NCBI GenBank assembly: GCA_027489035.1
Contig: JAIYAN010000001.1
Coordinates: 145,199-209,198 of the forward strand
Length of the DNA: 64,000 bases
Origin: Chitinophagaceae bacterium
GTDB taxonomy: Bacteria > Bacteroidota > Bacteroidia > Chitinophagales > Chitinophagaceae
Reading direction: 5' to 3'
Shown here: in pieces, positions 6,723 through 33,934 of the stretch
Layout: each line of letters begins with the position of its first letter
Numbering within the stretch: position 1 is the stretch's first letter
Translations under genes and position numbers: made by a program
Notes under the pieces: generated by a model
The model's database searches: none
Told to the model about the DNA's origin: nothing
What the model saw: only the letters and a program-made list of their open reading frames with translations

Positions 6723-7181
6723 CATTTAAATATTTTTATATGCTTGTGAGATTTTTAAATTACAAAATTCAAAAATTGTCACAACTTTAAATGGTTCATT
6801 TTAAAATAAAATGTTCATGCATCTTTTGAATTTGTTCGACTAACATTTTTTAATTTAATTGAACAAAGGCATAACATTTATTTAAACTATCCGTATTACT
6901 ATATTAAACAAAGATTCCAGGCGCCTTCCACCACCATCCAATCATCCTGCCACCCCAAAACTGATAAATCATCATGTATTAAATCCTGATTATCTAGATT
7001 GGTCTATGATGGATATTTTATATAGTATAGACATAGATTATTTTTAAAAATATAAATTAGGTAAAAAATGAAATGTATTTGATTTTGGAGTTATTTATTT
7101 ACTGGGTAAAGCAGATAATACACTTAAAGTTTGCTATTTTTAAAAAAATATTTAGAAATTAATTCCAAAATAATTCTTTTA
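6723..7181. other. Intergenic stretch without recognisable gene
   Basis: About 460 bases between the terminator and the thioesterase ATG. There is no credible ORF, no RNA gene and no clear hairpin. A GC-richer patch (about 6917-6965) stands out from the AT-rich surroundings but shows no structure I can name. A thioesterase promoter should lie near the right end; I could not define it. Confidence 0.6.
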
Positions 7182-7727
7182 ATGAAAACAGTCGCAAGTT
7201 CAGAAACAACATACACAGAATTAATGATTCCGTCATTTTCTAATTTTGGTGGGAAGGTACATGGAGGAATACTCCTATCTATAATGGACAAAGTGGCCTA
7301 TGTGTGCGCAAGTAAGCACAGCGAAAGTTATGTTGTTACCGTTGCTGTTGAAGGAGTAGAATTTGTATCTCCAGTTGAAGTTGGAGAGCTCATTACGGTT
7401 AACGCTTCAGTAAATTATGTTGGGAGAACCACAATGATTGTAGGCATGCGTTTGGAATCATTCAATACAAGGACCAGTGAATCTCGTTATACAAATTCAT
7501 GTTATTTTACAATGGCAGCAAAAAATGATGATGGCACTTTAAAAGAAGTTCCAGGGTTAATCATAAGCAACAAAAAAGAACTTGTTCGATTTTGTGAAGG
7601 CAGAATGATTCGTGAAATGTCGTTAAAAAAGAGAACTGCGCTGAAAAGTGATTTAGATGGAATAAGTGCTGAAAAGATGTTTGACCTTTGTAAAAATGAA
7701 AATTGTAAAATAGACTATAGTATATGA
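7182..7727 (+). CDS. Acyl-CoA thioesterase, hotdog fold (YciA/BFIT type)
   Basis: About 181 residues from the ATG at 7182. The track's TTG start 51 bases upstream adds an untypical basic leader. The central motif GGKVHGGILLSIMDKVAY with the following AVEGVEFVSPVEVGELI strand is the hallmark of 4HBT hotdog acyl-CoA thioesterases, where the invariant His/Asp region forms the active site and GELI packs the second strand. The reaction is hydrolysis of acyl-CoA to free acid and CoA in the cytosol. A C-terminal tail of about 45 residues is longer than in YciA. The gene stands alone and converges on the bestrophin-like gene. Probable housekeeping metabolism. Confidence 0.88.
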   Translation: MKTVASSETTYTELMIPSFSNFGGKVHGGILLSIMDKVAYVCASKHSESYVVTVAVEGVEFVSPVEVGELITVNASVNYVGRTTMIVGMRLESFNTRTSESRYTNSCYFTMAAKNDDGTLKEVPGLIISNKKELVRFCEGRMIREMSLKKRTALKSDLDGISAEKMFDLCKNENCKIDYSI

Positions 7728-7786
7728 ATTTAAGTGGCAACATTATTTAATTTCATTTCTAAATCTTTGTTTACTTGTTGCTTATT

Positions 7787-8572
7787 CTACTTAATTACAG
7801 ACAGCTCCTGTTCTACGTTGATAATAATATCATCCTCGCCCATATTGTCAAAAGGGTTTTCAAGATTGTCTTGTATATTTTTCAAACTAATTAGAATAAA
7901 ACTATACAAGATAGGCATAACAAATGCCAAGCCACTGCTATATTCTTTTGATATAGCAGCAAAATATGGTGCATAGAGAATTGGAAACGAATAGATAAAG
8001 ACTCTACTAAAAATTCTAAGTGATTTAGGTGTACGATAAACACAAATGGTTTTTATACTATCAAATGCAATGATGATTTTACTTACATATTGATTCAAAC
8101 GGGAAATTTCTCCACTTTGAACATTCAATTCCCTCAATTTAATTATAAGCTGAGTAAGATTTGCAAAATGAGCATACATCTGTTTTTCATGATTTATCCA
8201 TGAAGCTCTATCGCACATCATGATTTTAAGCAAACTAAATATTTTCTTGATTTCTTCATAAAATTCAGATGAAATTTGATTGTTGTCATTGTTAACTGGC
8301 CAGAATTTCGATGCATAATAAATTGAAAAAAGATGCCCCCTAAAATCCGACATTCTCTGCAAAGCGAGTTCTCTTCTATTGAATGCAGAACCGATTGAAA
8401 AAACGATTGGAAACACAATTGCCATTCCAATTAAAAGATCAGGAAACTTTGCTGAAATTTTCCATTTAATACACATCCAAGTAAAAAGAACAGACAATGT
8501 TGTAACTACTAGTGTTTGAAAGTTAAAAACATTACTAAACAATATTTTTTTAGAAAAGAATTTTTTAGTCAT
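7787..8572 (-). CDS. Bestrophin-like (RFP-TM) membrane protein
   Basis: 261 residues. Two TMs lie near 20-65 (ending in the FNRRELALQRMSDFRGHL region) and two near 190-235. The C-terminus ENPFDNMGEDDI matches the conserved ENPFG-x-DD(D/N)D end of bestrophin/UPF0187 proteins, and YRTPKSLRIFSRVFIYSFPI is typical of a divergent bacterial branch. Bestrophins form pentameric anion channels; ion selectivity here is unknown. Basic N-terminus, ATG at 8572. It lies 27 bases downstream of a small unknown gene on the same strand and converges with the thioesterase. Confidence 0.75.
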   Translation of the reverse strand: MTKKFFSKKILFSNVFNFQTLVVTTLSVLFTWMCIKWKISAKFPDLLIGMAIVFPIVFSIGSAFNRRELALQRMSDFRGHLFSIYYASKFWPVNNDNNQISSEFYEEIKKIFSLLKIMMCDRASWINHEKQMYAHFANLTQLIIKLRELNVQSGEISRLNQYVSKIIIAFDSIKTICVYRTPKSLRIFSRVFIYSFPILYAPYFAAISKEYSSGLAFVMPILYSFILISLKNIQDNLENPFDNMGEDDIIINVEQELSVIK

Positions 8573-8599
8573 TAAGGATAATTTTATAATTTAAGCAAG

Positions 8600-8920
8600 T
8601 TAAATAAATCTAATCTCTTTTTGATTTAATTGAAAATATGATTGCTGTGATTTTTTATCAAAACATTGCTTTATCCAAGTATAGATTGGAATCATAATCC
8701 ATTTTTCTTTTCCAACAAGTATATCTACCAAATCAGGTTGCATCACATCTATAAAATTCGTACGAATAATGGAATACTCTTCACAATTTGCTTTTTTTTC
8801 GGGAGTAATAAGCAGCCATTGAATATTTTTTTCTTCGTCTTCAATTTCAAAAATGAAAAATGTACTCAAAGCCAAATATGAAAGTATCTTGGGTAAAAGA
8901 TTTACAATTTTATAAAACAC
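8600..8920 (-). CDS. Small hypothetical protein
   Basis: 106 residues from a GTG at 8920. The first 20 residues are hydrophobic (LLPKILSYLALSTFFIF) and could associate with the membrane. The rest has the alternating pattern of a small alpha/beta domain (WLLITPEKK, DLVDILVGKEKWIMI). No family recognised. It lies just upstream of the bestrophin-like gene and may be cotranscribed with it. A 71-codon ORF on the other strand overlaps it but looks like a shadow. Confidence 0.5.
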   Translation of the reverse strand: MFYKIVNLLPKILSYLALSTFFIFEIEDEEKNIQWLLITPEKKANCEEYSIIRTNFIDVMQPDLVDILVGKEKWIMIPIYTWIKQCFDKKSQQSYFQLNQKEIRFI

Positions 8921-8988
8921 TACAGAAAAAATTATATATTAGCTAATTGAGAATTTTGTAAAAAAATCTTCTATTTCATAAATAAAAC

Positions 8989-9288
8989 ATGACAGAAACT
9001 GATCAATCCACAGAAAAAGAATCTTCAGATGACAAATTTAATCCGTTAAGTTGTATGGCGGTATTATTATATTATCCTGCTTTAGGATTTGCCATTCGAT
9101 TGGGATTTTCTATGTACGGATATTTATTTGATCATTTAAAAGGTTTCGCAATAATAATAGGCATACTAATTACAATTATAATAACCATAATCTATGCCTT
9201 TATAGCTGTGTTTATAGTTTATCTGCTTATACGTTTGGGAGAAATTGTGTGGGGATGGATAATGCGAATAAAAGCGAATAAAGTGTAA
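8989..9288 (+). CDS. Small two-TM membrane protein
   Basis: 99 residues. An acidic, Ser-rich N-terminus of about 18 residues is followed by a hydrophobic segment (about 22-50) and a long Ile-rich TM (about 53-85), then a basic tail. No family recognised. ATG at 8989. It is divergent from the small gene at 8600 and isolated from the large minus operon by a hairpin. Confidence 0.6.
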   Translation: MTETDQSTEKESSDDKFNPLSCMAVLLYYPALGFAIRLGFSMYGYLFDHLKGFAIIIGILITIIITIIYAFIAVFIVYLLIRLGEIVWGWIMRIKANKV

Positions 9289-9323
9289 ATTAAATTAACA
9301 ATAAAAAGATAACAAGGAATTGA

Positions 9324-9360
9324 TTAAAAAAATTAAGATTGAAAATTTAATATCTTAATT
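9324..9360 (-). terminator. Terminator of the large minus-strand STAND operon
   Basis: A 9-bp stem AATTAAGAT / ATCTTAATT followed on the minus strand by seven T residues (the A run at 9324-9330). It lies 23 bases after the stop of the 79-aa gene, so it ends the 25.7-to-9.4 kb transcript. Confidence 0.75.
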
Positions 9361-9382
9361 AATCTCCCCCACCCAAACCCCT

Positions 9383-9622
9383 TTAATTGTCTTCTGCTTG
9401 AGTTTTTAATCTTTTCTCAATTTGCTTTACCGATAGTTTAAAATTAGTTGAACATGAGAGAATATATAACTCATTTCTAGTAATCTTATTCCAAATACCA
9501 TCAGTGCAAACAAGTGCTCTATCTTCAGATTTTAATTTCATTAATTTGCATTCCAAAATAGTAATTGCGGTATCAACAGAAACAGAATATGATGGATCGA
9601 TATAATCTTTATTAATTTTCAC
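9383..9622 (-). CDS. Small protein resembling a PP2C phosphatase C-terminal fragment
   Basis: 79 residues from a GTG at 9622, overlapping the end of the 1177-aa gene by 11 bases, so it is likely translationally coupled. The stretch ALVCTDGIWNKITRNELYIL closely resembles the PP2C/PPM motif around the metal-binding Asp (LLCSDGLWDxLSxxEL). A normal PP2C domain needs about 240 residues with two further metal-binding motifs, which are absent here, so it cannot be a complete phosphatase. It may be a degraded remnant, or a small accessory subunit that copies part of the fold. It is the last gene before the terminator. Confidence 0.55.
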   Translation of the reverse strand: MKINKDYIDPSYSVSVDTAITILECKLMKLKSEDRALVCTDGIWNKITRNELYILSCSTNFKLSVKQIEKRLKTQAEDN

Positions 9623-12600
9623 TAAAGGAATTTTTAATATTTAGTACCCATTTGAATTGAATTTTATTTTCGAAATCTATATCTAAATCATTGTTATAAA
9701 CAATTCGATTTAACAGATATTTGTTCAACAATAATTCAATTGAATCATTATTATTTCTAGAAATCCAAAGAAGCGGTTTCAAATTTGAAAATGATAGATT
9801 TTTAATGCTTTGATTTCTAATCATACCCATTATAAAATTATGGTTGGCTTCATAATTTTTATACTGAACAAGCATTTCATAACACTCAGAAAATCCCTTT
9901 AATTCATATAATACTTCTCCTGATTTAGCCCAACAGTTCATTCGTTTTTCCCCTTTAGATATTTTGGAAATTAATGCTTCTAATTTATTAAAAGAAAAAT
10001 GAGTTGAATGACAATAATTTATTGCTTCAAAATCAATTATTTTATTGCGATAATTTTCGGAAATAACTGAATCAAATATTTTATTTCGGTTTGTCTCATT
10101 TAACGATGCGTGAAAAAACACAAACAAATCATACAACGTATTATCGCGCCATTCCGAATCTTTAATTTGTAATGCAATATCTAATGGGATGTTCAAATTT
10201 GAAAAAGTAGATAGATTTAAACATAGCTTATTTATTGCTTCCCCTTGCAGTGAAACATTTTGAATTTCATTAATTGAATCAAAAACTGAATTGACATATA
10301 AAACCATTTCTTCAGCATTTTCTGCAAATGAATAATATTTCGATTGCAGACTTAATGCATAACTTTTCCAATAATTTGAGGTTATTTTGACATACACTAG
10401 TTTTGACATTTCAGGTTGATTGGCAAACAACAAATAGGATGAGATCTCTGCATACATTTCATTTCGATGAGATTCATTTTCAATATTATCCGCTGAAAAT
10501 ATGGCTAAGTTGAAAACATCAAGTATAGATTCGTTGCTGCTTTTATTATTAAACAACTCCATAGCCCATCCTGCATAAGATTTAGCTTTCCAGAAATCAG
10601 ATGTAATCAATTTTACGATTTCATTCAATTTTTCAAATTCTAATTTCTTTGCCTTAACTAAAATAAGATCATATAATAATTCTCCGCGTTTGGAATTATC
10701 TCTTATTTTGATTGAGTTAGCAACGATTTCCGATTCTATCATTTTTGCCTCTTCACTATTTCCAATTTCAAAAACCCGTTCAAGTTTTCTGACCATTTTT
10801 TTATAATAACTCAATTCAGATAAATTATTAACAATAAAACGCCTTGTTTCATCTGAATTTTTATCAACCATTAAATCATCGGCAATTTGATTTAAGAGTT
10901 CTATTTTTTTAGTGTTCGCTTTTTCATTGGAATCATATTTAATGAAAGCAAATACTACATTTAAAAGAGCATCTGATTTGCTGTTTTTAATTTGATGACT
11001 GAGTATTAATTTTAATGATTTTTCTTTCCAATCAAAATCTGATATATAATTTATTAATTGTGTTGCAAAAGCCAAATGATCAATTTCACAATATTCATTT
11101 ATAATTTTAAACATCAACTCTCCATAATGAGCTGGATTTACAACATTTGATGCTGTTTTTGTTGCTGTATCAAGATATAAATTTACTTCTGACAACATTC
11201 CTTTGTTTCGGAACATAGTAGCTAAATTTATATAAGAACAAGTCTTCCAGAATTCAGAAGAAATGTTTTCTACAATTTGATTTGATTGGTCTATTTGATT
11301 AAAAAAATAACAACTAGCCGCCAATTCCATATAAGCCTCATTCTTTACCGCATCGCGTTTTATTTTTGAAGCTTCAGCATATGCCGTATTCAACACACGA
11401 ATCGCTTGTTCTTCAAGCCCTGAATCCATTAAAATCATTGACAATTTATTATAGCCAATAGATCTCCAATAATCTGACTTAATATCTTTTAAAATATTTT
11501 GTGCGTTTATAAAATCATTGTTTTTTGTGTATAGATATGAAAGATCTTGATACGCTTCGCTTTGAACAGAATCATTGCTAATGGCATCAAAATTTATTTT
11601 AGCCTCATTCATATTTTTTACAAATCTAATTTCGTCTGATAACGATTTGCAAATAGAAGCTATCTCTAAAAAAGTTGTTCCGCGCCAATAACTGTTTGTA
11701 ATTAAAGAAAAGATTTCCTCAAATAAAGTGACGTCCATTTTTTTATATATCACCACAGAAAGATTTTTAAATGCCTGATTACGCTGGGAAGCATTTTGAA
11801 TATTCCGGGCAGCATTAATTGAGCATTCTAAAAATCTATTTGAAAAAACATACGCTTGAAATACTTTCCATTCATCATAAAGCATCAAAGCCGTTTTATG
11901 TTTATTTTCTTCGTCGTCAATTTTGCTTAAATAATCAAATATCAAGTTTATTCGATCATTTATTTCAATAGATTTATTATTGTTGATTTCAAAAATCAAA
12001 AGCTCACTTAAGCATAAACACCTGCTTGAATAACTGTTTAAGTTATTTATTGTTTCAAAAAGAAATTTGATTTGATTACTATTAAAATCATCAGAAATGT
12101 TAATCCCAAGCCCATCCAATTTAGAAGCATATGAAAATAAATGTGAGGCATCTATTTCTTTTTCAAACAATTCCAAAGTCAACTTAATGACAAAATTTGA
12201 AGGAATAAACTTCGACCAATCTAATACGCTACAATCAACTGGAATTTCATTTTTAAGGTGAGTTATTAATTTATTTGCAGTCTCTTTAACCCAAGCAATA
12301 TCTTCATTTGGCAATTGATTTAATTCAAACAAACAAAGTAAATAAACAAGAAACTGTCTTGAACGACCAACTTTCGAAATATCTCCAAATGCCACTATTC
12401 TATCTGAAACGATATCGATATTTCTGCTTTTCAATAAATCGATTATGTTCTCCGCATCATTTTGTTCTAAATAATGAAGTCGAATGGATGAAAAATAACT
12501 ATCCAAATAGGATTGTTCATTGTATTTAGCAGACCACAAAATGGCATCGCCAATGGCTTTATTGCTCCATTTATAGCCATTACTCAATTCCACTTGTCTT

Positions 12601-13145
12601 TTCCAAATCAAATCGGAAGTTGCAAAATCAATTATTTTTTTCCCCTTGTTAGAATCATGTGCATCAATTAAATAATGAGCAGTCAAAAATTCCAATCCAT
12701 ACATCTCTAATTCATCTGAAGATTTTTGCTCTATAGATTGATTGATTGCATGAATGATATTATTATTAATCCGAGCAACTTCATTATTCGAAACTTTATT
12801 CAACAAAAAAGACTTCAACCTTTCATGGTATAGTTCATATTTAGCTGAATTTGTGACATTAAACCATTTTGAATATTTGGAAATAAACTCGATTATATCT
12901 GATTCTGGTTCACTCAAAACTATTGAAGCAAATTTTGCAGACACCTCTTTTTTTAACAATGAAAAAAAAGCAAATCTGTTTAATTGCAATTGAGATTGGC
13001 TCACATTAGTTGCGCCTAAAAACAATTCTTCATAGAGCCCTGTTAAACCCTCAGGCAATGAAGATGCATTTTCAGCATGAATGCTTCCACTATTTAAACC
13101 ATCGTGAATGTAACGTAGATAAGATGGATCGATTTTATTACTCAT
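9612..13145 (-). CDS. Winged-helix/TPR half of a split STAND NTPase
   Basis: 1177 residues. The N-terminal 110 residues (YLRYIHDGLNSGSIHA, SLPEGLTGLYEELF, LYHERLKSFLL) correspond to the helical/winged-helix segment that follows the NTPase in the single-chain 1537-aa protein of the same operon. About 25 degenerate TPR-like repeats of roughly 35-40 residues follow, many marked by D-Y/F-W-K/R (SDYWRSIGYNKLS, SEFWKTCSYINLA). No P-loop is present. The ATG at 13145 overlaps the stop of the upstream NTPase gene (TAATG), so the halves are probably made in equal amounts and assemble. By analogy with STAND proteins the repeats would sense a trigger and the winged-helix part would hold the off state. 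The effector is not visible here. Confidence 0.8.
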   Translation of the reverse strand: MSNKIDPSYLRYIHDGLNSGSIHAENASSLPEGLTGLYEELFLGATNVSQSQLQLNRFAFFSLLKKEVSAKFASIVLSEPESDIIEFISKYSKWFNVTNSAKYELYHERLKSFLLNKVSNNEVARINNNIIHAINQSIEQKSSDELEMYGLEFLTAHYLIDAHDSNKGKKIIDFATSDLIWKRQVELSNGYKWSNKAIGDAILWSAKYNEQSYLDSYFSSIRLHYLEQNDAENIIDLLKSRNIDIVSDRIVAFGDISKVGRSRQFLVYLLCLFELNQLPNEDIAWVKETANKLITHLKNEIPVDCSVLDWSKFIPSNFVIKLTLELFEKEIDASHLFSYASKLDGLGINISDDFNSNQIKFLFETINNLNSYSSRCLCLSELLIFEINNNKSIEINDRINLIFDYLSKIDDEENKHKTALMLYDEWKVFQAYVFSNRFLECSINAARNIQNASQRNQAFKNLSVVIYKKMDVTLFEEIFSLITNSYWRGTTFLEIASICKSLSDEIRFVKNMNEAKINFDAISNDSVQSEAYQDLSYLYTKNNDFINAQNILKDIKSDYWRSIGYNKLSMILMDSGLEEQAIRVLNTAYAEASKIKRDAVKNEAYMELAASCYFFNQIDQSNQIVENISSEFWKTCSYINLATMFRNKGMLSEVNLYLDTATKTASNVVNPAHYGELMFKIINEYCEIDHLAFATQLINYISDFDWKEKSLKLILSHQIKNSKSDALLNVVFAFIKYDSNEKANTKKIELLNQIADDLMVDKNSDETRRFIVNNLSELSYYKKMVRKLERVFEIGNSEEAKMIESEIVANSIKIRDNSKRGELLYDLILVKAKKLEFEKLNEIVKLITSDFWKAKSYAGWAMELFNNKSSNESILDVFNLAIFSADNIENESHRNEMYAEISSYLLFANQPEMSKLVYVKITSNYWKSYALSLQSKYYSFAENAEEMVLYVNSVFDSINEIQNVSLQGEAINKLCLNLSTFSNLNIPLDIALQIKDSEWRDNTLYDLFVFFHASLNETNRNKIFDSVISENYRNKIIDFEAINYCHSTHFSFNKLEALISKISKGEKRMNCWAKSGEVLYELKGFSECYEMLVQYKNYEANHNFIMGMIRNQSIKNLSFSNLKPLLWISRNNNDSIELLLNKYLLNRIVYNNDLDIDFENKIQFKWVLNIKNSFSEN

Positions 13146-14692
13146 TATGCTGTTATTTTTCCTTTTTCAATTACTGCAGCAATAAATTCTTTCGAAACTT
13201 TAAATTTTTCAAGTGCTTTTTCTACTGCGTTTTCACCCAATCCTTTTAATGGTTGTAACATCTCTATAGACTCCATTTCCTTAAAATTATGCAACTGATA
13301 AAACTGCTTTTCACCTTCTGAACTCGACCTGTATGTAAATATCCATTTGATATTTGAAGAACTTCTCCAATCTTCCTGTGGCTCTTCTTTTTCATTGTAT
13401 GTATAAAACCAATCAGATAAACGCATTGTAGAATTAGCTACAGCAGCTTCATCTAAGGCATCTATAATAATGATTAGATTTCCGGATTTATTATTCCTGG
13501 GTGATTTGAAATTAGAAGTCAACAGTAGCTGAAAAAAATGAATTAAATCAATGTATTTAGAAGGTAATCTTTCCAGCTTTTTTGCTACCTGTTCATCTGA
13601 AGTATCCCACCATTGATTTTTTTTGCCTTGCAATATCAAATGATATAATGTAGCATGCAAACTATTCTGCATACCCGATCCGCAGAAATGGTATAATACA
13701 GGGACTTGTAAGTTCTTAGATTTTAATTGTTCAACAACTTCGGCTACCAATGCCCCTTTTCCCATGCCAGCTTCAGCATAAATAGGCAGCACATTATTTT
13801 TTGAATCCGACTGGCACCAATCTAATATTTTATTAAGTTCTTCATCTCTTCCTACAAAGCATTCTTGGTAGTAAGCAATTCTTTCGCTATGATCAAAAAC
13901 CTGCCCTGCTCCACCTCGTAATGCCTGTCGCATGGGCTCGAATGTTGGTTCCAAAGATGCTGTTGCAATTTGTCTTGATTTTTCGAGCCCATCATTTTCT
14001 TTAGTATCTGGCCATTCGTTTCCGAAATGGGTATTGATAAATTTTGCTTCTGTTTTATTGCCATACAACCCCTGAAACAAATAAGGCAATCCTTCTTCTT
14101 CGCCATTTTGTAAAAAGGGATGTAAACAATATTTTTCTGTTGGCGTGTTGAAATAGAATTTATTTTCTTCCAAAGAAATACTTGTGTTTTCAAACAATTC
14201 AGCGAGTTTTGCCATCTCATCAAACAACACCATTGATTTTTGAATGGATGCAATATGCTCCGGAATAATTCTTATAGATTGATGAACAAAATCGTTTCTG
14301 AATTTTACAAATCGGCCTAATATATTTTGTCCATTACTATCCTTAACCAACGGATTACTCCAATGAGTATCATTTGTCGCAGATATCTCCCAAATGGTTC
14401 TCCAACTGGTATCACTCGGTAATGTTTCTCTGAGATTATCAATTACTTGCTTCATGAATAATGCATCACCTTTATCATCCAAGTGATGTAGCTTTTTACA
14501 TAAAGAAACAACAGCACCCAATCTGAGCAAAAGTGTACTCAAACCCAGTGCAGCCATGTAGTAATTGTTCAGATCTGATTTTTGATTTAAAATCAATTCA
14601 TTTAATTGCTCAGTATTTGCAGTATGCAGACCTAATTTATTTTTTATATCCTGATACCTGTCGAGATATCTTTTAATGGTTGACTGTATCAT
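13145..14692 (-). CDS. HEPN-like/STAND NTPase half (515 aa)
   Basis: N-terminal helical domain with R132-N-D-F-V-H137, the R-x4-H motif typical of HEPN RNase-like domains. This is followed by a linker and a NTPase (about 275-480) with Walker A AEAGMGKG (about 306-313), Walker B LIIIIDALDEA (about 406-416) and a sensor strand IFTYRSS (about 451-457). In Walker A the Ser/Thr after the lysine is Gly, which should weaken Mg-nucleotide binding. The protein stops just before the winged-helix part, which is the next gene, with TAATG overlap. Its own start overlaps the stop of the 523-aa gene by four bases (ATGA). Role: switch-like NTPase of a multi-component conflict system (inference). HEPN catalytic competence is unproven. 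Confidence 0.82.
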   Translation of the reverse strand: MIQSTIKRYLDRYQDIKNKLGLHTANTEQLNELILNQKSDLNNYYMAALGLSTLLLRLGAVVSLCKKLHHLDDKGDALFMKQVIDNLRETLPSDTSWRTIWEISATNDTHWSNPLVKDSNGQNILGRFVKFRNDFVHQSIRIIPEHIASIQKSMVLFDEMAKLAELFENTSISLEENKFYFNTPTEKYCLHPFLQNGEEEGLPYLFQGLYGNKTEAKFINTHFGNEWPDTKENDGLEKSRQIATASLEPTFEPMRQALRGGAGQVFDHSERIAYYQECFVGRDEELNKILDWCQSDSKNNVLPIYAEAGMGKGALVAEVVEQLKSKNLQVPVLYHFCGSGMQNSLHATLYHLILQGKKNQWWDTSDEQVAKKLERLPSKYIDLIHFFQLLLTSNFKSPRNNKSGNLIIIIDALDEAAVANSTMRLSDWFYTYNEKEEPQEDWRSSSNIKWIFTYRSSSEGEKQFYQLHNFKEMESIEMLQPLKGLGENAVEKALEKFKVSKEFIAAVIEKGKITA

Positions 14693-16260
14693 AATGATAA
14701 TGTTTTGTGTTTGTATTCAAGTTTCACATCTCTACGCCCAAGCGAAAGAAAGATAGCTGTAGTTTCTGTAATGTCTTTAGGGAATCCATACAATTCATCA
14801 ACTTCATCTTTAATAAAATCTTCTTTACCGGATTGTAGGAAAGGATTCAAAATGGCAAAACATTCATGCACATATTCTATTGGGTAATTGTGTTTATCAG
14901 CGAACCTTCTGGCAACAACTTTTCCTCCTTCAATTTTACAAACTTCATTCAGTTCTTCTGTTAATTTGCTCATGATTTCACAAAGCATATCATAATCTTC
15001 TTTTCCATCTTCTTTCTCAGGAGAAGGGCCTTTAAATCTTAGATAATTTTGAAGAGATGATTTCCATTCTAACTCTGATGGAATATAAGAAGGAGAATGA
15101 ATTGAAAAAGACTGATTAATGTATCTGTCTAAATAAGTAAAATGCTCACCAAAAACAATTAAAGGAATTTCAGCATCAAAAAGCGTATTGGCTAATTTGA
15201 GTAAATGGTTTTCATTGAATAGTCCGATATGAACACCATAAAGTACAACTACCGGCTTCTTTTTTCTTTTCAAAATCAATTCTTTATTCTTAATGGCCTT
15301 GTCGGTATCAGATTGATATTTAGCATTGCCGGTATCAGTTGACAAGGCCTGCCCTAATACTCTCAACAAAAAAGAAGAAGTTAATGTAAGACCTACATCC
15401 TGTAATCGAAAAAATACAGGAAGTAAATTCTCATCTTTTTGCAACTCCTGAACAACCGATTGATACCCATTGATGGCATTTACATTATTAGGGCGATGCC
15501 AAAAAGCAAGGGCTCCTTTTTTGTTGTGATAAATAAAATCAATTGCATTTTTGTTTACTTCATCAACAGTTATTATGTTGCTGTTTACAAAATCATTTTC
15601 TTCCTTAATAAACTCGTCACTTAGTTCCACACTTATTCGCTCTGCCAATTCTGTAAATTGAAAGCAGTTGTTGAATAAGGACCAATCCGCATCATTTGAA
15701 ACAGACCAGTTTCCATTAAAACCTTCTTTGTTTACAAAATGAAAATCGTATTTTAAATGCTCAAATATTTTAGCTTCAGCAATCTTCTCCAACAAACTAG
15801 CAATATGTTCTGCCTCTTTTAGGTTTCTCTCAGGAGGCAATACAAAGAAACCATGCATCACTTCATTTCTCAATGACGACAAGCGAATAAACTCTTCTTT
15901 ATAGTCTTTAAAAAAAGGCAAAATACTTTTCACCTCATCTCCTTCCGCATCTTTTATCATATTGGTTGCCCATTTGTATAAAGGACCTGCATTGTATGAA
16001 TGACCTCCGGATGTAAACAGATTAATCAGAAAATCATTGTACACTGATTTTTGTTTGTGTTGCTTTAGATATGTGGCAAAGCCAATGGCGGCGAGTTGAG
16101 AGAGAATTTCTTCAGCCAGTTCAACGAGTTCGTCGGCTGCGTAGGAAGCATCGACCTCAAATTCTTGAATACATATTTTTGATTTTTGAATGATACTTTC
16201 TGGAAGATTAAACTTTGACGCCTTTTCTAAACTTGGTGAGTTTAATTTATTTGTATACAT
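14689..16260 (-). CDS. HEPN-like protein with degenerate, P-loop-less STAND domain
   Basis: 523 residues. The N-terminal helical domain (about 20-165) contains R131-N-E-V-M-H136 (R-x4-H, HEPN-type). The following region aligns in order with the NTPase of the neighbouring genes, but the Walker A position reads LAFWHRPNNVNAINGY (about 251-266) with no GK(S/T). The Walker B position reads PVVVLYGVHIGL (about 336-347) without the acidic pair. I therefore read it as a pseudo-NTPase that may regulate or scaffold the active partner. It starts nine bases after the 1179-aa winged-helix/TPR gene, its probable second half, and overlaps the next gene by four bases. Alternative reading: an unrelated alpha/beta domain. 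Confidence 0.72.
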   Translation of the reverse strand: MYTNKLNSPSLEKASKFNLPESIIQKSKICIQEFEVDASYAADELVELAEEILSQLAAIGFATYLKQHKQKSVYNDFLINLFTSGGHSYNAGPLYKWATNMIKDAEGDEVKSILPFFKDYKEEFIRLSSLRNEVMHGFFVLPPERNLKEAEHIASLLEKIAEAKIFEHLKYDFHFVNKEGFNGNWSVSNDADWSLFNNCFQFTELAERISVELSDEFIKEENDFVNSNIITVDEVNKNAIDFIYHNKKGALAFWHRPNNVNAINGYQSVVQELQKDENLLPVFFRLQDVGLTLTSSFLLRVLGQALSTDTGNAKYQSDTDKAIKNKELILKRKKKPVVVLYGVHIGLFNENHLLKLANTLFDAEIPLIVFGEHFTYLDRYINQSFSIHSPSYIPSELEWKSSLQNYLRFKGPSPEKEDGKEDYDMLCEIMSKLTEELNEVCKIEGGKVVARRFADKHNYPIEYVHECFAILNPFLQSGKEDFIKDEVDELYGFPKDITETTAIFLSLGRRDVKLEYKHKTLSL

Positions 16261-19844: not shown

Positions 19845-21011
19845 TTACTTTCCCAAATCCTCCTCCAAATGATGCCATGTCCATTTGAAAGTCTCTTCCC
19901 TAGAATTTATAACCGGGCGATATTGCATCTGAAAATGAAACTCAAGATATTCCATACCATTTTCATCTTTCTCTATGGTAGCATGGTATCCAATAAAAAA
20001 ATCAAACTCAGGTTTGATGTAAACCCTTCTACCATTCATATACTTTAATTTTTTGTCGAAGAAATCAACAGCAACAGCTTCATCCCCTTCGAATGCACCT
20101 TTACCAAAAAAATCTTCGGAATAAAAATCGAGTAACTGTTTGAAATAGGCTTTATACAAACTCATTTGTCTTCGTGCGCCTTGCATGACTACATCAACCA
20201 AAGATTTACCATCAATATTGAAAGGAGTCATTTCAATCATAAAACGTTGTTCATTATTAGAGACCAAGGGAAATTTATCAAATCTCGCTTCTTCATGAAA
20301 TGAAAAATTAAATCTGCGATTAATACTCAAAAGATTTTTATAATCAAACCATCCGTAAATCATGCTCAACAGAGGTGTAACAATACCGTTGTCTTCCAAA
20401 GAGGTAAAGGAAATTTCGGGATGCAAATCATGAGGATGAATGAGTACGATGACACGAAGATCATTCCTGATTTCTGTAATTCTAAGCAGATTTGTACTGG
20501 CTTTCCAAGCATCATCTCCCGGAAATTCAACATTGTTTTTATAATCAGCGAGGACTGTTTTAAAGTCGCGGCCATTCAGAAATGACAAGATGGTTTCCGT
20601 TGTAAAAACCGAATTAATCCAACCCTCCAGAAATACTACCGGATCTTGAAAATCAAAAAATGCCGAATCATAATTGAGGGCATCATTTACCAGAAATTTT
20701 TGTTGAGATGATTCACCATAATTATCCTGCCAGTTCTCTTTTCTTTTTGCACGAGCTTTAAATGCTTTAGCAGATAGTTTTCTGATGGGTTCCAAAGAAA
20801 CTGAAAAATAAGCATTTGTTGGACTATTGAATACAACTCGATTAAAAATGCTATCTACAGGCGTTTTAGGGTATTCAATAATATTTGCCGACAACCCTCT
20901 ACCTGCAAAACCTCTTTGATTAAATGGAATCTTAAAACCACTATCCTCATTTTCGATAACAGAAAAATATTGACGGGCTTCTTCTAATGACTTTATTTCT
21001 TTAAATAGCAT
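19845..21011 (-). CDS. Hypothetical 388-aa protein inside STAND operon
   Basis: 388 residues with no membrane segment and no signal peptide. It is mixed alpha/beta and rich in aromatic residues (NRVVFNSPTNAYFSVSLEP, FDFFIGYHATIEKDENGMEYL, FKWTWHHLEEDLGK). A conserved-looking core RNDLRVIVLIHPHDLHPEISF sits at about 182-202. I do not recognise a family. It lies between the complete 1537-aa STAND protein (39 bases) and the 1179-aa gene (35 bases), so it is cotranscribed and could be an effector, adaptor or sensor specific to this system. Confidence 0.72.
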   Translation of the reverse strand: MLFKEIKSLEEARQYFSVIENEDSGFKIPFNQRGFAGRGLSANIIEYPKTPVDSIFNRVVFNSPTNAYFSVSLEPIRKLSAKAFKARAKRKENWQDNYGESSQQKFLVNDALNYDSAFFDFQDPVVFLEGWINSVFTTETILSFLNGRDFKTVLADYKNNVEFPGDDAWKASTNLLRITEIRNDLRVIVLIHPHDLHPEISFTSLEDNGIVTPLLSMIYGWFDYKNLLSINRRFNFSFHEEARFDKFPLVSNNEQRFMIEMTPFNIDGKSLVDVVMQGARRQMSLYKAYFKQLLDFYSEDFFGKGAFEGDEAVAVDFFDKKLKYMNGRRVYIKPEFDFFIGYHATIEKDENGMEYLEFHFQMQYRPVINSREETFKWTWHHLEEDLGK

Positions 21012-21050: not shown

Positions 21051-24000
21051 TTAACACATACCCTTCACATTCTCCCCAAACTCCTCCTCTGTCATTTTAC
21101 CCTTTGCCACCTGTTTTGCCCAAAGTCTTATCTGGTCTATATCATCTTCATCCTCCACCTCCGCTATCCACTCCTCCAAATTAGTAGACAACCTAACCAC
21201 ATTTTCTTCTTTTGGAAATGTTGCAATAACATCCAAAGCCCATTGGATATTAAGCGAACGATTAAATTTTTGTATTTTTTCTTTTGGTGTTTTTTCAAAA
21301 AAAGCACAATACAAAGCATGCATTTGCAACAGATACTCGGTACTTTCTTTATCTGCTTTTACCAATGGGAGAATTTGCAAAATGGTTTCTTCTGTAGCAT
21401 TAGTAGCCGTTATGGATTGTGCAATGCCTTTTTTGAAGAAAGTTATGGCTTCATCGTTGGGGAGTTGGGAAAGTGTTTGATGAAGATTTTGTAATTGATG
21501 TTTTTTGTAAAATTCTTTGCCTATTTCTAGCCAAGCTTGCATTCGATCGGCTCCACTGTTAATTTTTTGTATCACATCATTTGATGATGCTATTTTTTTC
21601 CAAATAGCTAACACAATTGCAATTTCCTTTAAGGCTAAATTTTTGTCGTAATCATCATTTATCCCTTCTGCAATCTCAATCGATTTATTTAACAATTTGC
21701 TACTCTCTGATAAGTTACCATGATTAGCCAATACAACAGCAATTTCCTTAAAAGCTATACTTTTTCCTCTTTCATCATTTATTCCTTCAGCCATTATGAT
21801 TGATTTCTCTAATTCTCCATGGTTGGAATACCATTGTGAAATTTTTACAAATACTGAAGATACATTCCAATCTAAATTTATACAATTAGACATTTGAATC
21901 GATTTTTCTATTTCTCCTTGATTTGCCAAAAAGACAGATAACTCCTTGAAAACTACATCTTTTTGTAAATAATCTACAAGGAGTTCTGTCATTTGAATTG
22001 CTTTATCTAATTCACCTTGATTTGCTAAAACTATTGCGATTTGCATAAAAGCATTACTTTTTTCAAAAGTATCATTAATAATCTCAGCAGTCCGAATTGA
22101 CTTCTCAAACAACATATTACTCTCTTCAAACTTATTTGTATTCAATAACTCAAAAGAGATTTCTGCAAACAATGAACATTTATCAACTTTATAATTTATT
22201 CCTTCGGCAACTTGAATTGCTTTCTCTATCTCAATTAGATTTGAAAACCTTAGCGCAATATTCTTGAATATTGAAATTTTATGCCAATCATCATTTAAAC
22301 CTATGGAAGCTTGTATTGATTTCTGAATTGTATTTATAACCATTGAAAATTTATCTTGTTTCATTAAAACAACAGCTATTTCACTAAATGCTAAAGTTTT
22401 ATGCCAATCATCATTTATTCGATCAGTCATAAGCATTGAGTGCTTTATCTCACTTCGATTCGCTAAAACGATAGAAATCTCCTTAAAAGCTAAACTTTTT
22501 TTCCAATCTGTTTCTATAACTTCTGCTATTTGAACTGATTGCTCTAATATATGATCACTTTTTGCTAACATACCCTGATTTGCTAATACAACTGCAATTT
22601 CCCTATAGGCAGTACTTTTGTCGAAATCATCATCTATACCTTCAACCATCAAGATCGATTTCTCTATTTGTCCTTGATTAACTAATACAACTGCAATTTC
22701 CTTGTATACTAAATTTTTATCATAATAATTATTTATATCTTTCGCTATATCTATTGATTTTTCTAATATATTTCTACTTTCTTCAAAAAACTCCAAATTC
22801 GCTAAAACAACTGCGATATCCTTGAAGGCTAAACTTTTTTGCTTGTAATCATCGATATTCTCGGCAACCTGAATCGATTTATCCATTTCACCTTGATTCA
22901 CTAATAATAAGACTATTTTATTTAAAACATAATTTTTTTGCCATTCAATTTTTATCTCTTTTTCGATATTATATAATTTGAATAAAATATTATTACTCCT
23001 TACTATCTCACCTTGATTAGCCAATAAAATAGCGATATCAGAGTAATATGAGCTTTTGGAAATTAAATCATCGACTTCGGAAATTTGCATTAATGTCTCT
23101 ATTATTTTACTAAACTTTACCAAATCCCCTTGTTTCCCCAACTCACAAGCTATTCCTATAAATGCAGAAAATTTTTTCCATTCCTTATTTACAATTCCGG
23201 CTGTCTGTATTAATATATCAAATTCTTTATTTGAGTATGGTCCTTTGTTTTTAATCCATTTATTTTCCCAACCATCTGTTCTCTTGTAAATTTCAATAAA
23301 ATCCAAATCCATTGCTTTTAACTCTACAGCAATCAAAAAAACCAAATAACTTGAAAAAAAACGATCCCAATCCAAAATACTATGATCAACAGGTATCTGC
23401 TCCTCCATCAATCCCAACAATTTTTCAATAGCATTTTTTCTCCAAGGCTGGTTTTTGCTTTCCAATAAAGTAAGCTCCATGATGCAAAGCATGATTACAA
23501 TAAACTGCCTTTGTTTATCATCTTTACTTAGCCCACCCAATGCTGTAATTCTTTGCAAAGTCAATTCTATCTCATTTTGCTTCACCATTTCCAAAATGGC
23601 TGTCACATCATTTTGTTCTTCGTATTTTAGGTCCACAATAACTAGTCCACAATCAATAGCAGCTTCATTCCAGTTATTTTTTGTAGCTATTTCAATTCCA
23701 TTTTGAAAGAGCTGATGAGTAGCTTCAAAATTTCGCAATACTTTTTTCTGTGTGGCGATAAATTCAGCATCTTTTGTTAAAGCAATCAATGTTTGATGAT
23801 GTTCTTGATTTTGCTGAGTAGATAAATGTGCTGCAAAATGTCGTAAAATATATTGCTGCTCGTAATTGCCTTCTAAAGTATTCCATCTCCCACAAAACTC
23901 AATAATCTTCAACTCCGCTTTGGCAACTTCTGTGGCTCGATCTTTTTTCAAATACTCTCTCAAACTTTCATGAAACAACTGATAATCCAACACGTTTTCG

Positions 24001-25664
24001 GTCATGGGATTTTCGTACAACACTTCCACCAAAGTGCTCAACACATTAGTTTGTGTAGCCGGACCAAAACCCAGTATCTCGCTCAGGTGCATGGGTGTGA
24101 GGTAATCGCGGGCGGCAGCAAATACAAAAAGACTGTTCAATAAATGATCGCCATCGGGCATTTGTGCATAGCGTTGCAAGATGGCTTTGTAATAATCATC
24201 AATCTCTTTGGGTAAGGCATCAACATCATTGATGGCAATACTTCCCTCTTCAATGGCATTGCAGAGTAATTTCAAATACAATGGATTCCCCTCAGAACGT
24301 TTTTGTAAATAATCAATCCATGCAGAGTCTTTGTCAATCTCATATTTGTTGGCCACTTCATACAATAATGCACGAATGTCTTCTTTGCTCAAACCACCCA
24401 GTTCAATTTTTTGATGATGTTCTACAGATAATTCACCCCAAAATTTATCAAGTTGTTGATGCCCGCCTGGACGAGAGCCATACATGAAAAGGATGTTATT
24501 AAAATTTTCACGAGGCAGGTATTTTAAAATATCATTCTCCACCCCTTCATCCAAACCATCGATTAAAAAAATGATTTTAAATGGAGATTCAATTTCTCCG
24601 AAAGCAGTCCATTTGTTGTACAATTGCTGTTGCAACTCCCAAGTGGTTTGTCCTTCGGCACGTATTTCCTTTCCCGCCGGAAAAAATTCATCGGTTTTTT
24701 TAAGCAAGTAGTTTATCAAATACGACACTTCTGCTTGTGATGTTCCTCTTCTAATAAAATACTCAACCAATTGTATGGGTAGTTTTTCTTCAGAGTTGGT
24801 CAAATCTTTATACACCTGTGCAATAAGTGCCGATTTACCAATACCAGGATTCCCTTGAATAGAGAGAAAACCTTTTTGCTTGGTGGTTACAAATTTCTTG
24901 ATGGTAGCCCTTTCAGTCAAACGACCTTTAAAAGTTTCCGTTAGTTCTTCAATGCGCTGGTTAAAAATATTGCTGCCGGTCTTCTTCCATTCCTGCAAGG
25001 GCAGGTATTGATTAAACTCACTAAAGAAAGATTTATCTCGATAATGCTTACTCAACGGATAATTGAGCAACCCTACTTTATCATTTTTTAAATCATTGAA
25101 AAACACAAAAGGCTGTTCGGTTTCATCTGTACGATAAGCAATGATGGGATGAAGATTGAGTACATCTGTTTCATTTTTCAAATATACTTTTCCATCAATG
25201 GCTTCAATGTTAGATTCATTCAGCCATTGCAAGGACAATAATATGTTTAAGAAAGGCTCAAATTGTTTGATGTCATTTTCACATTGTTCATCTGTGGGTG
25301 TAGCTCCATGTGCGTATCCGTTTCGAAAAGAAATGACATTGGTTTTTTCTTGGTTCAACGCTTTATCCAATGCTTCAAATGCTGTTGCAAAATCATTACA
25401 CAAAAAACCATGATTGGCTTCTTTCAACTCTTTGTACAATTCTCTACTAAACAATTGCCATGTTCCCAAAGAAGGCGTCCTCAAACCTGCAGCCAGCATC
25501 CCTTTTGCGGTATCGCTGATTTGATTATGCTTGAAATACTCTCCCATCATTACAGCCGTATGGGTTTTGATGATGGTTTCAAACAAATCAATCATGCGGT
25601 GCACCTTGCGGAAAGGCTGGGTTTCGGAGAGGTAGATTTTGTGAAGCGTAATTATGTGGAGCAT
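21051..25664 (-). CDS. HEPN-like/STAND NTPase/TPR protein, full length
   Basis: 1537 residues in one chain. (1) A helical N-terminal domain (about 15-150) with R114-N-G-Y-A-H119, the HEPN-type R-x4-H. (2) A STAND NTPase with Walker A GNPGIGKS (271-278), Walker B KIIFLIDGLDE (363-373) and sensor LFMYGSRPGG (about 392-401). (3) A helical/winged-helix part (about 405-600). (4) About 20 TPR-like repeats of around 34-38 residues (consensus INDDxxKSxAFKEIAVVLANQGEIEKSI). ATG at 25664 is preferred over 25595 because residues 15-40 continue the first HEPN helix. This is the ancestral-looking layout from which the split sets differ. It is the first large gene of the operon. Proposed role: ligand-triggered oligomerisation that activates the HEPN domain (inference). 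Confidence 0.85.
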   Translation of the reverse strand: MLHIITLHKIYLSETQPFRKVHRMIDLFETIIKTHTAVMMGEYFKHNQISDTAKGMLAAGLRTPSLGTWQLFSRELYKELKEANHGFLCNDFATAFEALDKALNQEKTNVISFRNGYAHGATPTDEQCENDIKQFEPFLNILLSLQWLNESNIEAIDGKVYLKNETDVLNLHPIIAYRTDETEQPFVFFNDLKNDKVGLLNYPLSKHYRDKSFFSEFNQYLPLQEWKKTGSNIFNQRIEELTETFKGRLTERATIKKFVTTKQKGFLSIQGNPGIGKSALIAQVYKDLTNSEEKLPIQLVEYFIRRGTSQAEVSYLINYLLKKTDEFFPAGKEIRAEGQTTWELQQQLYNKWTAFGEIESPFKIIFLIDGLDEGVENDILKYLPRENFNNILFMYGSRPGGHQQLDKFWGELSVEHHQKIELGGLSKEDIRALLYEVANKYEIDKDSAWIDYLQKRSEGNPLYLKLLCNAIEEGSIAINDVDALPKEIDDYYKAILQRYAQMPDGDHLLNSLFVFAAARDYLTPMHLSEILGFGPATQTNVLSTLVEVLYENPMTENVLDYQLFHESLREYLKKDRATEVAKAELKIIEFCGRWNTLEGNYEQQYILRHFAAHLSTQQNQEHHQTLIALTKDAEFIATQKKVLRNFEATHQLFQNGIEIATKNNWNEAAIDCGLVIVDLKYEEQNDVTAILEMVKQNEIELTLQRITALGGLSKDDKQRQFIVIMLCIMELTLLESKNQPWRKNAIEKLLGLMEEQIPVDHSILDWDRFFSSYLVFLIAVELKAMDLDFIEIYKRTDGWENKWIKNKGPYSNKEFDILIQTAGIVNKEWKKFSAFIGIACELGKQGDLVKFSKIIETLMQISEVDDLISKSSYYSDIAILLANQGEIVRSNNILFKLYNIEKEIKIEWQKNYVLNKIVLLLVNQGEMDKSIQVAENIDDYKQKSLAFKDIAVVLANLEFFEESRNILEKSIDIAKDINNYYDKNLVYKEIAVVLVNQGQIEKSILMVEGIDDDFDKSTAYREIAVVLANQGMLAKSDHILEQSVQIAEVIETDWKKSLAFKEISIVLANRSEIKHSMLMTDRINDDWHKTLAFSEIAVVLMKQDKFSMVINTIQKSIQASIGLNDDWHKISIFKNIALRFSNLIEIEKAIQVAEGINYKVDKCSLFAEISFELLNTNKFEESNMLFEKSIRTAEIINDTFEKSNAFMQIAIVLANQGELDKAIQMTELLVDYLQKDVVFKELSVFLANQGEIEKSIQMSNCINLDWNVSSVFVKISQWYSNHGELEKSIIMAEGINDERGKSIAFKEIAVVLANHGNLSESSKLLNKSIEIAEGINDDYDKNLALKEIAIVLAIWKKIASSNDVIQKINSGADRMQAWLEIGKEFYKKHQLQNLHQTLSQLPNDEAITFFKKGIAQSITATNATEETILQILPLVKADKESTEYLLQMHALYCAFFEKTPKEKIQKFNRSLNIQWALDVIATFPKEENVVRLSTNLEEWIAEVEDEDDIDQIRLWAKQVAKGKMTEEEFGENVKGMC
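21600..23050 (-). repeat. Intragenic TPR-coding repeats
   Basis: Roughly 100-120-base imperfect direct repeats, recognisable by CTTGATTNGCTAATACAAC(A/T)GCAATTTCC and a recurring ATCATTTATNCCTTC. They encode the TPR-like array of the 1537-aa protein. Several copies differ at few positions, which suggests recent internal duplication or conversion. Confidence 0.75.
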
Positions 25665-26333: not shown

Positions 26334-27677
26334 ATGGCTACCAAAAAATCATCGCTAAAAATAGATACTGAACTCTCGCGTTGCATCAACCAGCTTTTGC
26401 TGAAAGAGCCGTTTTTTGCGCATATTCTGGCTGGAACCGTGCGTAAAATAACTGATGAAGTGCCTACTGCTGCTGTAGGGTTTAGCAATGATTTGATTTT
26501 GCTGATGGTCAATGAAGATTTCTTTTTAAAAGAATTAAAATCCGAATCAGAACGCACCGCCGTTTTAAAACACGAAGTGCTGCATCTGGTGTTTCGCCAT
26601 TTATTTAGAGATAAAATAAAAGAAGATGCAGAACTGTTTAATATTGCTGCAGATATTGTAGTGAATCAATATATCGGTTTTTGGAAATTGCCCGACTCTG
26701 CAGTTACGTTAAAAACTTTTCCAGATTTGAATTTAAAACCGGAGCAACACCTCGAATACTATTACGATATTTTATTCAAACTGAACGAAGCCAATCAAAA
26801 AGCTTCGGCTAATGGTAAGGGTAAGGAAGGTAATCAAGGCAATGATCAAAACGGCAATTCTCCTTCTGGAAGTGGCGACAAACCTAAAAACCAACCCATG
26901 AATGAGAAGCACCCGCAAAGTGCTAAAGCATTGGCAGATATATACGGACATCAACGACACAGCGATCATTCTAAATGGATTATTAAAGATGGTACACAAG
27001 CCAAAACCGCTGATGGCAAATCTATTCCCGATAATTTAATTTCAGGCATCGAACAAACCTTAGGCAAACAATTGCTAGAAGCCGCTGCCAGAACACCTTC
27101 AAAACATTATGGGAATTTACCTGCAGCTCTTATTATCGAAATTGATTTGATTAGAGAATCGATGAAACCAAAAGTAGATTGGAAAAGGGTGTTGAAAATT
27201 TTCTCCAGCTCGAGTGGCAGAACGGTGATTTACCAAACCATGAAAAGAATCAGCAAGAGATATGGTACACGACCGGGTATACGAATTAAACAATTCAAAA
27301 AAATCGCTGTTGCCATAGATACTTCAGGCTCAATACAAGAAACAACCCTTGCACAATTTTTTAAAGAAATTGATACTATCCATCGAAACGGCGCCGAAAT
27401 TTTCATCATTGAATGTGACGCTGCCGTAGGTAATGCCTATCCTTACAAAAAGAATGCACCCATCAAAATCAAAGGTGGCGGCGGCACCAACTACGACCCT
27501 GCTTTTGAATACATCAATAAAAACAAAAAACTTCAAATTGATGCCTGCGTTTATCTCACAGATGGTTTTGCTCCTGAACCTAAAATAAAGCCAAGGTGCA
27601 AATTATTGTATGTAATTACACCGGATGGAAATAATGGAAATCATTTAAAATGGGGTAAAATCATTACAATGAAATAG
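26334..27677 (+). CDS. DUF2201-type metallopeptidase-like and vWA domain protein
   Basis: 447 residues. The N-terminal domain contains H80-E-V-L-H84 inside LKHEVLHLVFRHL and the downstream NIAADIVVNQYI motif, as in the DUF2201 N-terminal putative metallopeptidase domain. A Gly/Asn/Lys-rich linker (about 155-195) follows. The C-terminal vWA-like domain has the MIDAS motif DTSGS (329-333), a GGGGTNYDPAF loop and an LTDG strand. Such proteins pair with MoxR AAA ATPases, which remodel or load the vWA partner. Here a MoxR gene lies 4.4 kb away beyond the LRR gene on the opposite strand. A possible promoter is TTTTG (about 26287) 20 bases before TAAGATTA. Likely cytosolic. Confidence 0.87.
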   Translation: MATKKSSLKIDTELSRCINQLLLKEPFFAHILAGTVRKITDEVPTAAVGFSNDLILLMVNEDFFLKELKSESERTAVLKHEVLHLVFRHLFRDKIKEDAELFNIAADIVVNQYIGFWKLPDSAVTLKTFPDLNLKPEQHLEYYYDILFKLNEANQKASANGKGKEGNQGNDQNGNSPSGSGDKPKNQPMNEKHPQSAKALADIYGHQRHSDHSKWIIKDGTQAKTADGKSIPDNLISGIEQTLGKQLLEAAARTPSKHYGNLPAALIIEIDLIRESMKPKVDWKRVLKIFSSSSGRTVIYQTMKRISKRYGTRPGIRIKQFKKIAVAIDTSGSIQETTLAQFFKEIDTIHRNGAEIFIIECDAAVGNAYPYKKNAPIKIKGGGGTNYDPAFEYINKNKKLQIDACVYLTDGFAPEPKIKPRCKLLYVITPDGNNGNHLKWGKIITMK

Positions 27678-27725
27678 ACAGTTAAAGTAAAAATTCAAAA
27701 ATCAAAATTATAACTTCTCACCATT

Positions 27726-32084: not shown

Positions 32085-32094
32085 TTTTTATTTT

Positions 32095-33213: not shown

Positions 33214-33226
33214 GGGGGTAAATATT

Positions 33227-33934
33227 TTATTTTTTATTTTTTATTTCCTGGTTTTTTATGTTTATTTCTTTGCCTGTAATAAACCCATAAACATCAATAA
33301 TTTTTGCCTTCTTATAAGTTATTTTTGTCTTTTTTGATGTGTTAAAATCAGTTGTGAAAGTATTAGATGATAATTTGTCAATTGATTCTTTATTGGCTTC
33401 ATAAAAAATTTTAATCGACTCTAAAGCTTTAATATTAAACGCAGAAAAACCACATTCTTTCTCAAATATTATTTTAAATGAACTTTTAAAGTTCACATCA
33501 AAAGCAGGAACAAAGCCAAACACTCCAAGTAAAATCTTAGTCACTAAAGTTAAATCAGAGTTGTCTTCATAAATTAGTTTAGCTTTAATATCATTATATA
33601 ATTCAATGATTTTTTTTATGTTATCATTGCTATAATTATCAACATCAATATCCCAAATTGATTTATCTAAATCAGATAAATAGATGATGGTATTTTCAAA
33701 ATGTTTACCACTTTTATCTAATAAAAAACTTGAGCCTCGATACATCCCCCAGCTTGCTAAATAAAATCCAAGGACATAGCAGCTTTTCTCCATGTCTTTT
33801 GTTAGATCATTATTTGTTTTAAAGTAATTGTAACAATAGTCATAAGAAGTAAACCGATCTTCCGGATTAGATTTGTAAAGGTAAGTTTTGAAAACACTTT
33901 CAATATCTGACTTTTTTAAATTATTTATGTTCAT
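33227..33934 (-). CDS. Conserved-looking hypothetical protein, MoxR/STAND neighbour
   Basis: About 235 residues from the ATG at 33934. The track's GTG at 33973 would overlap the preceding gene and adds an untypical leader. The helical core with SYDYCYNYF, CYVLGFYLASWGMYRGSSFLL and a central pair of hydrophobic helices (TKILLGVFGFVPAFD) resembles a widespread uncharacterised bacterial family that I recall only as hypothetical. No catalytic motif is evident. It sits between the 1219-aa STAND gene (26 bases) and the MoxR gene (13 bases), so it probably functions with them. Its last residues run into an AT-rich TTTTTTA repeat. Confidence 0.72.
   Translation of the reverse strand: MNINNLKKSDIESVFKTYLYKSNPEDRFTSYDYCYNYFKTNNDLTKDMEKSCYVLGFYLASWGMYRGSSFLLDKSGKHFENTIIYLSDLDKSIWDIDVDNYSNDNIKKIIELYNDIKAKLIYEDNSDLTLVTKILLGVFGFVPAFDVNFKSSFKIIFEKECGFSAFNIKALESIKIFYEANKESIDKLSSNTFTTDFNTSKKTKITYKKAKIIDVYGFITGKEINIKNQEIKNKK

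Follow-up and report, generated by a model that had tools for sequence, protein, structure and literature searches.

The gene system

The window, which is the whole 64,000 nucleotide stretch of DNA analysed, contains a group of minus strand genes around a 523 amino acid open reading frame, designated P0001 (Table 1). A sequence-only reading had picked out this frame as a STAND-like subunit without a P-loop, and it was found exactly where it had been placed, running from 16260 to 14689. The two strings quoted from it are both present, LAFWHRPNNVNAINGY at residues 251-266 and VVVLYGVHIG at residues 337-346.

Table 1. Features of the system. Positions are those of the window unless a locus number (L) is given.
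Feature	Position	Strand	Basis or remark
P0006, sensor subunit, winged-helix half and helical repeats, 1177 aa	9612..13145	-	overlaps P0002 stop by 1 nt
Constant N-terminal module of P0006, about 120 aa	12786..13145	-	sensor N-termini comparison
P0002, HEPN-like and STAND NTPase, 515 aa, ending before GxP motif	13145..14692	-	Pfam NPHP3_N/ATPase_2; Avs3-like model; gene junctions
Walker A of P0002, IYAEAGMGKGAL, Gly replacing Ser/Thr	13748..13783	-	family alignment
P0001, HEPN, pseudo-NTPase and winged helix, 523 aa	14689..16260	-	ORF; homologue alignment; AlphaFold2 model; structure matches
C-terminal winged helix of P0001, residues 446-523	14692..14925	-	model; CED-4 alignment reaching residue 523; mean family identity 63%
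AAA+/STAND-type pseudo-NTPase domain of P0001, residues 233-390	15091..15564	-	model; fold matches; alignment
Lost Walker B site of P0001, residues 335-346	15223..15258	-	catalytic acids replaced; H344 in 22/23
Lost Walker A site of P0001, residues 250-260, ALAFWHRPNNV	15481..15513	-	P-loop Lys after beta-1 in 0/23
HEPN-like helical domain of P0001, residues about 20-165	15766..16203	-	model helices; weak Pfam HEPN_LA2681
RNEVMH, R131-x4-H136, HEPN catalytic-type motif of P0001	15853..15870	-	RNxxxH in 23/23 members
P0004, sensor subunit, winged-helix half and TPR, 1179 aa	16270..19809	-	TPR_12 1e-11
Constant N-terminal module of P0004	19450..19809	-	sensor N-termini comparison
P0005, 388 aa, fold unassigned, possible accessory	19845..21011	-	26% relative adjoining system in L037
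P0003, single-chain HEPN-STAND-TPR, 1537 aa, upstream, same direction	21051..25664	-	unsplit order of same parts
Uracil-DNA-glycosylase-like proteins	L023:6276-6986, L032:590-1180, L038:873-1430		possible effectors of STAND system

P0001 is a maintained pseudo-NTPase

The AlphaFold2 model of P0001 has a mean pLDDT of 86.7 and a pTM of 0.78. A helical N-terminal domain (residues 21-163) is followed by an NTPase-type core made up of strand beta-1 (250-255), a helix (260-275), a strand (279-285), a helix (295-310), a strand (335-341), a helix (353-362), and a strand (367-372). The C-terminal part consists of ARC-like helices at 396-440 followed by a winged helix at 450-523. The core has the alpha/beta arrangement of the AAA+/STAND order, with the NTPase and ARC helices preceding the winged helix. 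The domain order proposed from the sequence is therefore present and residues 240-420 do not adopt an unrelated fold. ALAFWH forms strand beta-1, a short turn, RPNN, takes the place of the P-loop ahead of the 260-275 helix, and VVVLYGV is the Walker B strand. The predicted structure is that of an NTPase fold with an empty phosphate-binding loop, as had been anticipated. Comparison with solved structures aligns residues 230-389 with ORC/Cdc6 (Z 11.5, 3.0 A, 149 residues) and residues 218-523 with CED-4 (Z 10.4, 4.9 A, 228 residues), and the best Foldseek match to the model is the NRC3 resistosome (E 3e-4).

The profile-profile comparison with the 515 and 1537 amino acid proteins, suggested alongside the structure prediction, was less successful, giving the correct register and a weak, non-significant match. 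When P0001 and P0002 profiles were compared by domain against column-shuffled controls, the HEPN domains fell inside the background and the NTPase domains were marginally above it, scoring 22.0 where the highest of 60 shuffles was 20.8. Structure and conservation therefore carry the case for a pseudo-NTPase. The HEPN call is based on the motif, the helix layout, and weak Pfam matches, since the fold search barely tested residues 1-217. A sequence search of solved structures with the P0001, P0002, P0005, and glycosylase-like profiles returned nothing useful.

A pattern scan of 84,980 genomes identified 23 loci of the P0001 family, in Bacteroidota MAGs. The 22 loci other than that in the window have full-length homologues with 40-49% identity, and the 23 full-length sequences can be aligned end to end. 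Relatives are present in 10 of 395 genomes of the same class and in 2 of 395 genomes in a wider sample of the phylum. None was found in viral contigs, plasmids, or phages, hence there is no sign of phage or plasmid carriage. Searches of Pfam, PADLOC, and NCBIfam gave no match to P0001; weak matches to the Pfam model HEPN_LA2681 are seen in nine of the 23 members, the best of these (E 7e-4) being below the curated cutoff.

The HEPN-like R-x4-H motif that had been noted is found at R131-x4-H136, and R131-N132-x3-H136 is invariant in the 23 members. The loss of the Walker motifs, also noted from the sequence, extends to the whole family, with no Walker A, Walker B acids, or sensor Arg in any of the 23 homologues; the P0002 counterpart of this Arg, R455, is invariant (18/18). 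Nine members have a 'GKG' string, which is located before beta-1, not after. Pocket residues G249, F348, and N382 are conserved in every member and H344 in 22, and residue 254 is W in 21 members and F in two. The winged helix is strongly conserved and ends in GRRDxKLEYxHK. Comparison of close pairs gives a dN/dS of about 0.14-0.16 for the complete gene and about 0.12-0.17 for the NTPase-like part. P0001 is a maintained pseudo-NTPase and not a decaying gene, since the Walker motifs have been lost in all 23 members, from several families, yet these are full-length and under purifying selection. Its classification as a pseudogene was rejected.

The P-loop partner

In the window and nine other loci the genes for P0001 and P0002 overlap by 4 nt, ATGA, and the pair is adjacent in most loci. 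The genomes with P0002 are the same 10 of 395 that have P0001, plus one contig-edge fragment, and the sequence distances of the two proteins are correlated (Spearman 0.88). P0002 is a near-obligate partner of P0001. It had been proposed that the pseudo-NTPase acts as an allosteric partner; this pairing speaks for a partnership, which may be allosteric.

P0002 matches the Pfam models NPHP3_N, above the cutoff, and ATPase_2. The best structure match to its model is Avs3 (Z 14.4, 217 residues, 3.2 A), followed by MalT (Z 13.0). RNxxxH is present in all 18 P0002 members, with only several weak HEPN model matches, weaker than those of P0001. The P-loop Lys, K312, and the Walker B acids D411 and D414 are likewise found in 18 of 18, with E or D at position 415. 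The residue following the P-loop Lys is Gly in 17 members (AGMGKGAL) and Ser in one. Because Gly stands in place of the Mg-binding Ser/Thr of Walker A, NTPase activity in P0002 is plausible but uncertain, and it is possible that hydrolysis is slow or absent. The description of the neighbouring NTPases as active is refined accordingly for P0002; in the 1537 amino acid P0003, Walker A is a standard GKS.

Split point and proposed sensor proteins

The P0002 chain stops ahead of GxP and contains no winged helix. Its end is the point at which P0003 goes on with GNPLYL, the GxP region, and then with the winged-helix half. P0004 and P0006 can be aligned to P0003 from about residue 460 of the latter, directly past the NTPase, and their N-terminus is the missing winged-helix half, opening with an I-E/D-P-x-Y-L-R motif. 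Two residues of this module, P7 and H107 (in YHER), are invariant; by analogy with known NLRs, these may be the nucleotide-contacting Pro of GxP and His of MHD. Pfam gives no supportive match to the module itself.

In one MAG contig P0002 and a sensor are fused in a single open frame. This fusion may be a sequencing error, as the difference is about one base and is beside a G-run. The split as such was also considered as a sequencing error and this was rejected, because it is found in nearly all loci and the sensors are often upstream of P0001, away from P0002.

There are one to three sensor genes per locus, upstream or downstream of the P0001-P0002 pair. A sensor gene is present in the window and in all eight fetched loci that have at least 3 kb on both sides. 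The first 118 amino acids of sensor paralogues are 90-96% identical in L025, L026, L027, and L030, 71% identical in L034, and 50% identical in the window. The remainder is close to the shuffled background in most pairs (21-31% versus 23-27%), for example 27% versus 24% in the window, 31% versus 27% in L025, and 29% versus 25% in L030. In L027 and L030 the constant part gives way abruptly to the variable part at about residue 118-125; in other loci the boundary is somewhat later. Sensors L027_5 and L030_2 still resemble each other past this boundary, at 60-75% over the initial 60 residues checked, so particular sensor bodies are common to different loci. Some bodies contain TPR and most are without a known domain. 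A search of the same genome for further sensor genes found only P0004 and P0006, plus P0003. If the trans-split reading given below is correct, the constant docking module would also provide a handle for finding more sensors, the bodies being too variable for their own detection.

Genes around the system

In other loci, uracil-DNA-glycosylase-like proteins of two families are encoded upstream of P0001, matching a deoxyinosine glycosylase model with E 1e-5 and 2e-6. They would be an unusual effector type for a STAND system. HNH nuclease genes (PF01844, E 2e-5) are also found upstream of P0001 in other loci. Neither glycosylase-like nor HNH genes are beside the system in the window.

Some neighbours recur. 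A thioesterase-like gene (window 7131-7727) also adjoins the system in L025, L027, and L041, and window 1933-3012 matches DUF4407 proteins found near the system in L036 and L033. These common neighbours suggest a shared chromosomal spot. One gene cluster is represented beside the sensors in two loci (L034:9877-10953 and L041:7625-8620), the L034 copy having a weak match to SNaCT11, a short NACHT-associated C-terminal domain (E 0.004). In two genomes an 861 amino acid protein with RNAEAH, which is RNxxxH-like, in its N-terminal part is encoded between the P0001 and P0002 homologues (L017:766-3351 and L019:1364-3949). An insertion just upstream of P0001 in L023 encodes a RhuM-Fic protein (8963-9979), which adjoins an AAA_21/AbiEii-like ATPase (7369-8862).

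Elsewhere in the window, the surroundings at 26334-44000 are defence-like. Named by eye from the sequence are a single-chain HEPN-STAND-TPR protein (33961-37620), a MoxR-like ATPase (32095-33213), an AbiEii/AbiEi-like pair (37640-39278), and a NADAR-like protein (41368-41967). The MoxR-like ATPase is accompanied by a DUF2201 vWA protein (26334-27677) and a very long LRR protein (27726-32084), two names that were not assigned by eye. A second HEPN-STAND-TPR gene, at 47121-51163 on the minus strand, is apparently broken into a HEPN part of 389 amino acids (RNGLAHGF) and a P-loop/TPR part of 924 amino acids, which occupy different frames and are separated by about 100 bases. A large minus strand gene at 60769-63954 encodes a protein with many near-identical repeats (LCNNQLPYNWNGTNYNAAGTYTFT...) and, by eye, a gliding-type C-terminal domain at the end.

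Interpretation

The architecture of the system, in terms of fold, lost motifs, pairing, split point, and the constant and variable parts of the sensors, is well supported. Beyond what had been read from P0001, its partner NTPase is itself split, with the winged-helix half on separate sensor proteins, and this setting makes P0001 more interesting than a lone pseudo-enzyme. The explanation preferred here, at a probability of about 0.5, is a multi-subunit, trans-split STAND defence switch of the NLR/Avs-like kind, in which a constant core of a HEPN-pseudo-NTPase and a HEPN-NTPase without a winged helix is completed in trans by interchangeable sensors that have a common docking module and unrelated bodies.

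For such a switch we infer an anti-phage role and a mechanism along the following lines. The constant module of a sensor subunit would dock on P0002 and complete its nucleotide site in trans, through the GxP-like Pro and MHD-like His, so that P0002 stays in the ADP state. Contact of the sensor body with its trigger, which is probably a phage component, would open the P0002-sensor unit and let it assemble with P0001. Since no NTP hydrolysis is possible for P0001, it would be a fixed, non-cycling structural or allosteric neighbour in this assembly. The HEPN domains of the two proteins, which are probably RNase effectors, would be brought together as a dimeric RNase, and RNA cleavage would stop growth. 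In other loci, the DNA-attacking glycosylase-like or HNH accessories may join as extra effectors.

It is possible, if doubtful, that P0001 is mainly a nucleic-acid receptor, its dead STAND/ORC-like module and winged helix binding phage DNA or RNA and signalling to P0002. The best folds for P0001 are ORC/Cdc6 proteins with a winged helix, the P0001 winged helix is strongly conserved, and a nucleic-acid role has been proposed for inactive STANDs, the iSTAND proteins (PMC8195603). However, the hypervariable bodies of the P0004 and P0006 type seem better suited to sensing, and P0001 is among the most constant parts of the system, unlike a receptor in an arms race.

It is unlikely that P0001 is a HEPN RNase effector in which the NTPase-like domain is a passive scaffold for entering a P0002 ring. 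The differences in mean family identity, 65% for the HEPN domain and 63% for the winged helix compared with 37% for the NTPase-like part, would be in keeping with this. Yet a conserved set of residues is particular to the dead domain (G249, W254, H344, F348, and N382), and its dN/dS is as low as that of the rest of P0001; together these indicate a specific role.

Less likely again is an antitoxin-like inhibitor, where the P0001 HEPN domain would pair with that of P0002 and block it until release. The obligate 1:1 pairing and translational coupling are as seen in toxin-antitoxin pairs, but a pure inhibitor would not need the RNxxxH that is invariant in 23 of 23 P0001 sequences. Finally, the idea that the lost Walker motifs mark P0001 as a degenerate copy heading for loss is refuted, and is most improbable, given the same loss in full-length members from several families under purifying selection.

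If the trans-split switch is correct, the single-chain NLR plan of effector, switch, and sensor is separable at the ARC1/winged-helix joint and can be run as a hub. A new recognition specificity could then be gained by swapping the sensor body alone, and the system would offer a direct test of the purpose of inactive STAND domains.

Comparison with known systems

The Avs proteins are single chains with an effector, a STAND, and a repeat sensor, and bind phage terminase or portal. The system described here resembles Avs, for example Avs3, in the best match of the P0002 NTPase, the N-terminal effector, and the use of helical repeats as a sensor. It differs in that the effector-NTPase and the winged-helix-sensor are on separate proteins rather than in one chain, and in having several sensors per locus and a pseudo-NTPase partner.

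Two STANDs are also encoded in the two-gene nSTAND2 operon, one having eroded NTP motifs, with the inactive one fused to GT4 or HEPN (PMC8195603). The presence of a plausibly active and an inactive STAND in one operon, and of HEPN on the inactive P0001, is similar. In contrast to nSTAND2, a HEPN-like domain is present on both members, there is a third, multi-copy class of sensors, and P0002 matches the NPHP3_N/ATPase_2/NACHT models. No match named nSTAND2 was among the family-model matches, although the library may not hold that model.

Inactive STAND/ORC-like subunits have been described in the MoxR-vWA ternary systems (PMC7159879) and in BREX, as BrxB/BrxF (PMC12839542). These iSTAND-containing systems are like the one described here in that an inactive STAND/ORC-like subunit serves as the fixed partner. 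The tested genes of the P0001 operon region between 9612 and 25664 include none for MoxR or vWA, and no BREX genes were identified. Searches of open PubMed Central papers turned up related ideas, but no case of an NLR-like protein that is divided ahead of the winged helix and has several interchangeable sensors.

P0001 shares the order of NTPase, helical ARC, and winged helix with CED-4/Apaf-1, but is without the nucleotide motifs and has HEPN instead of CARD. The sensor/helper NLR networks of plants are alike, as an analogy only, in having one core and several sensors; here, the sensors differ from those of plants in being without an NTPase domain and giving the winged helix in trans. If the proposed switch is correct, its interchangeable-sensor hub would be a bacterial counterpart of these plant receptor networks.
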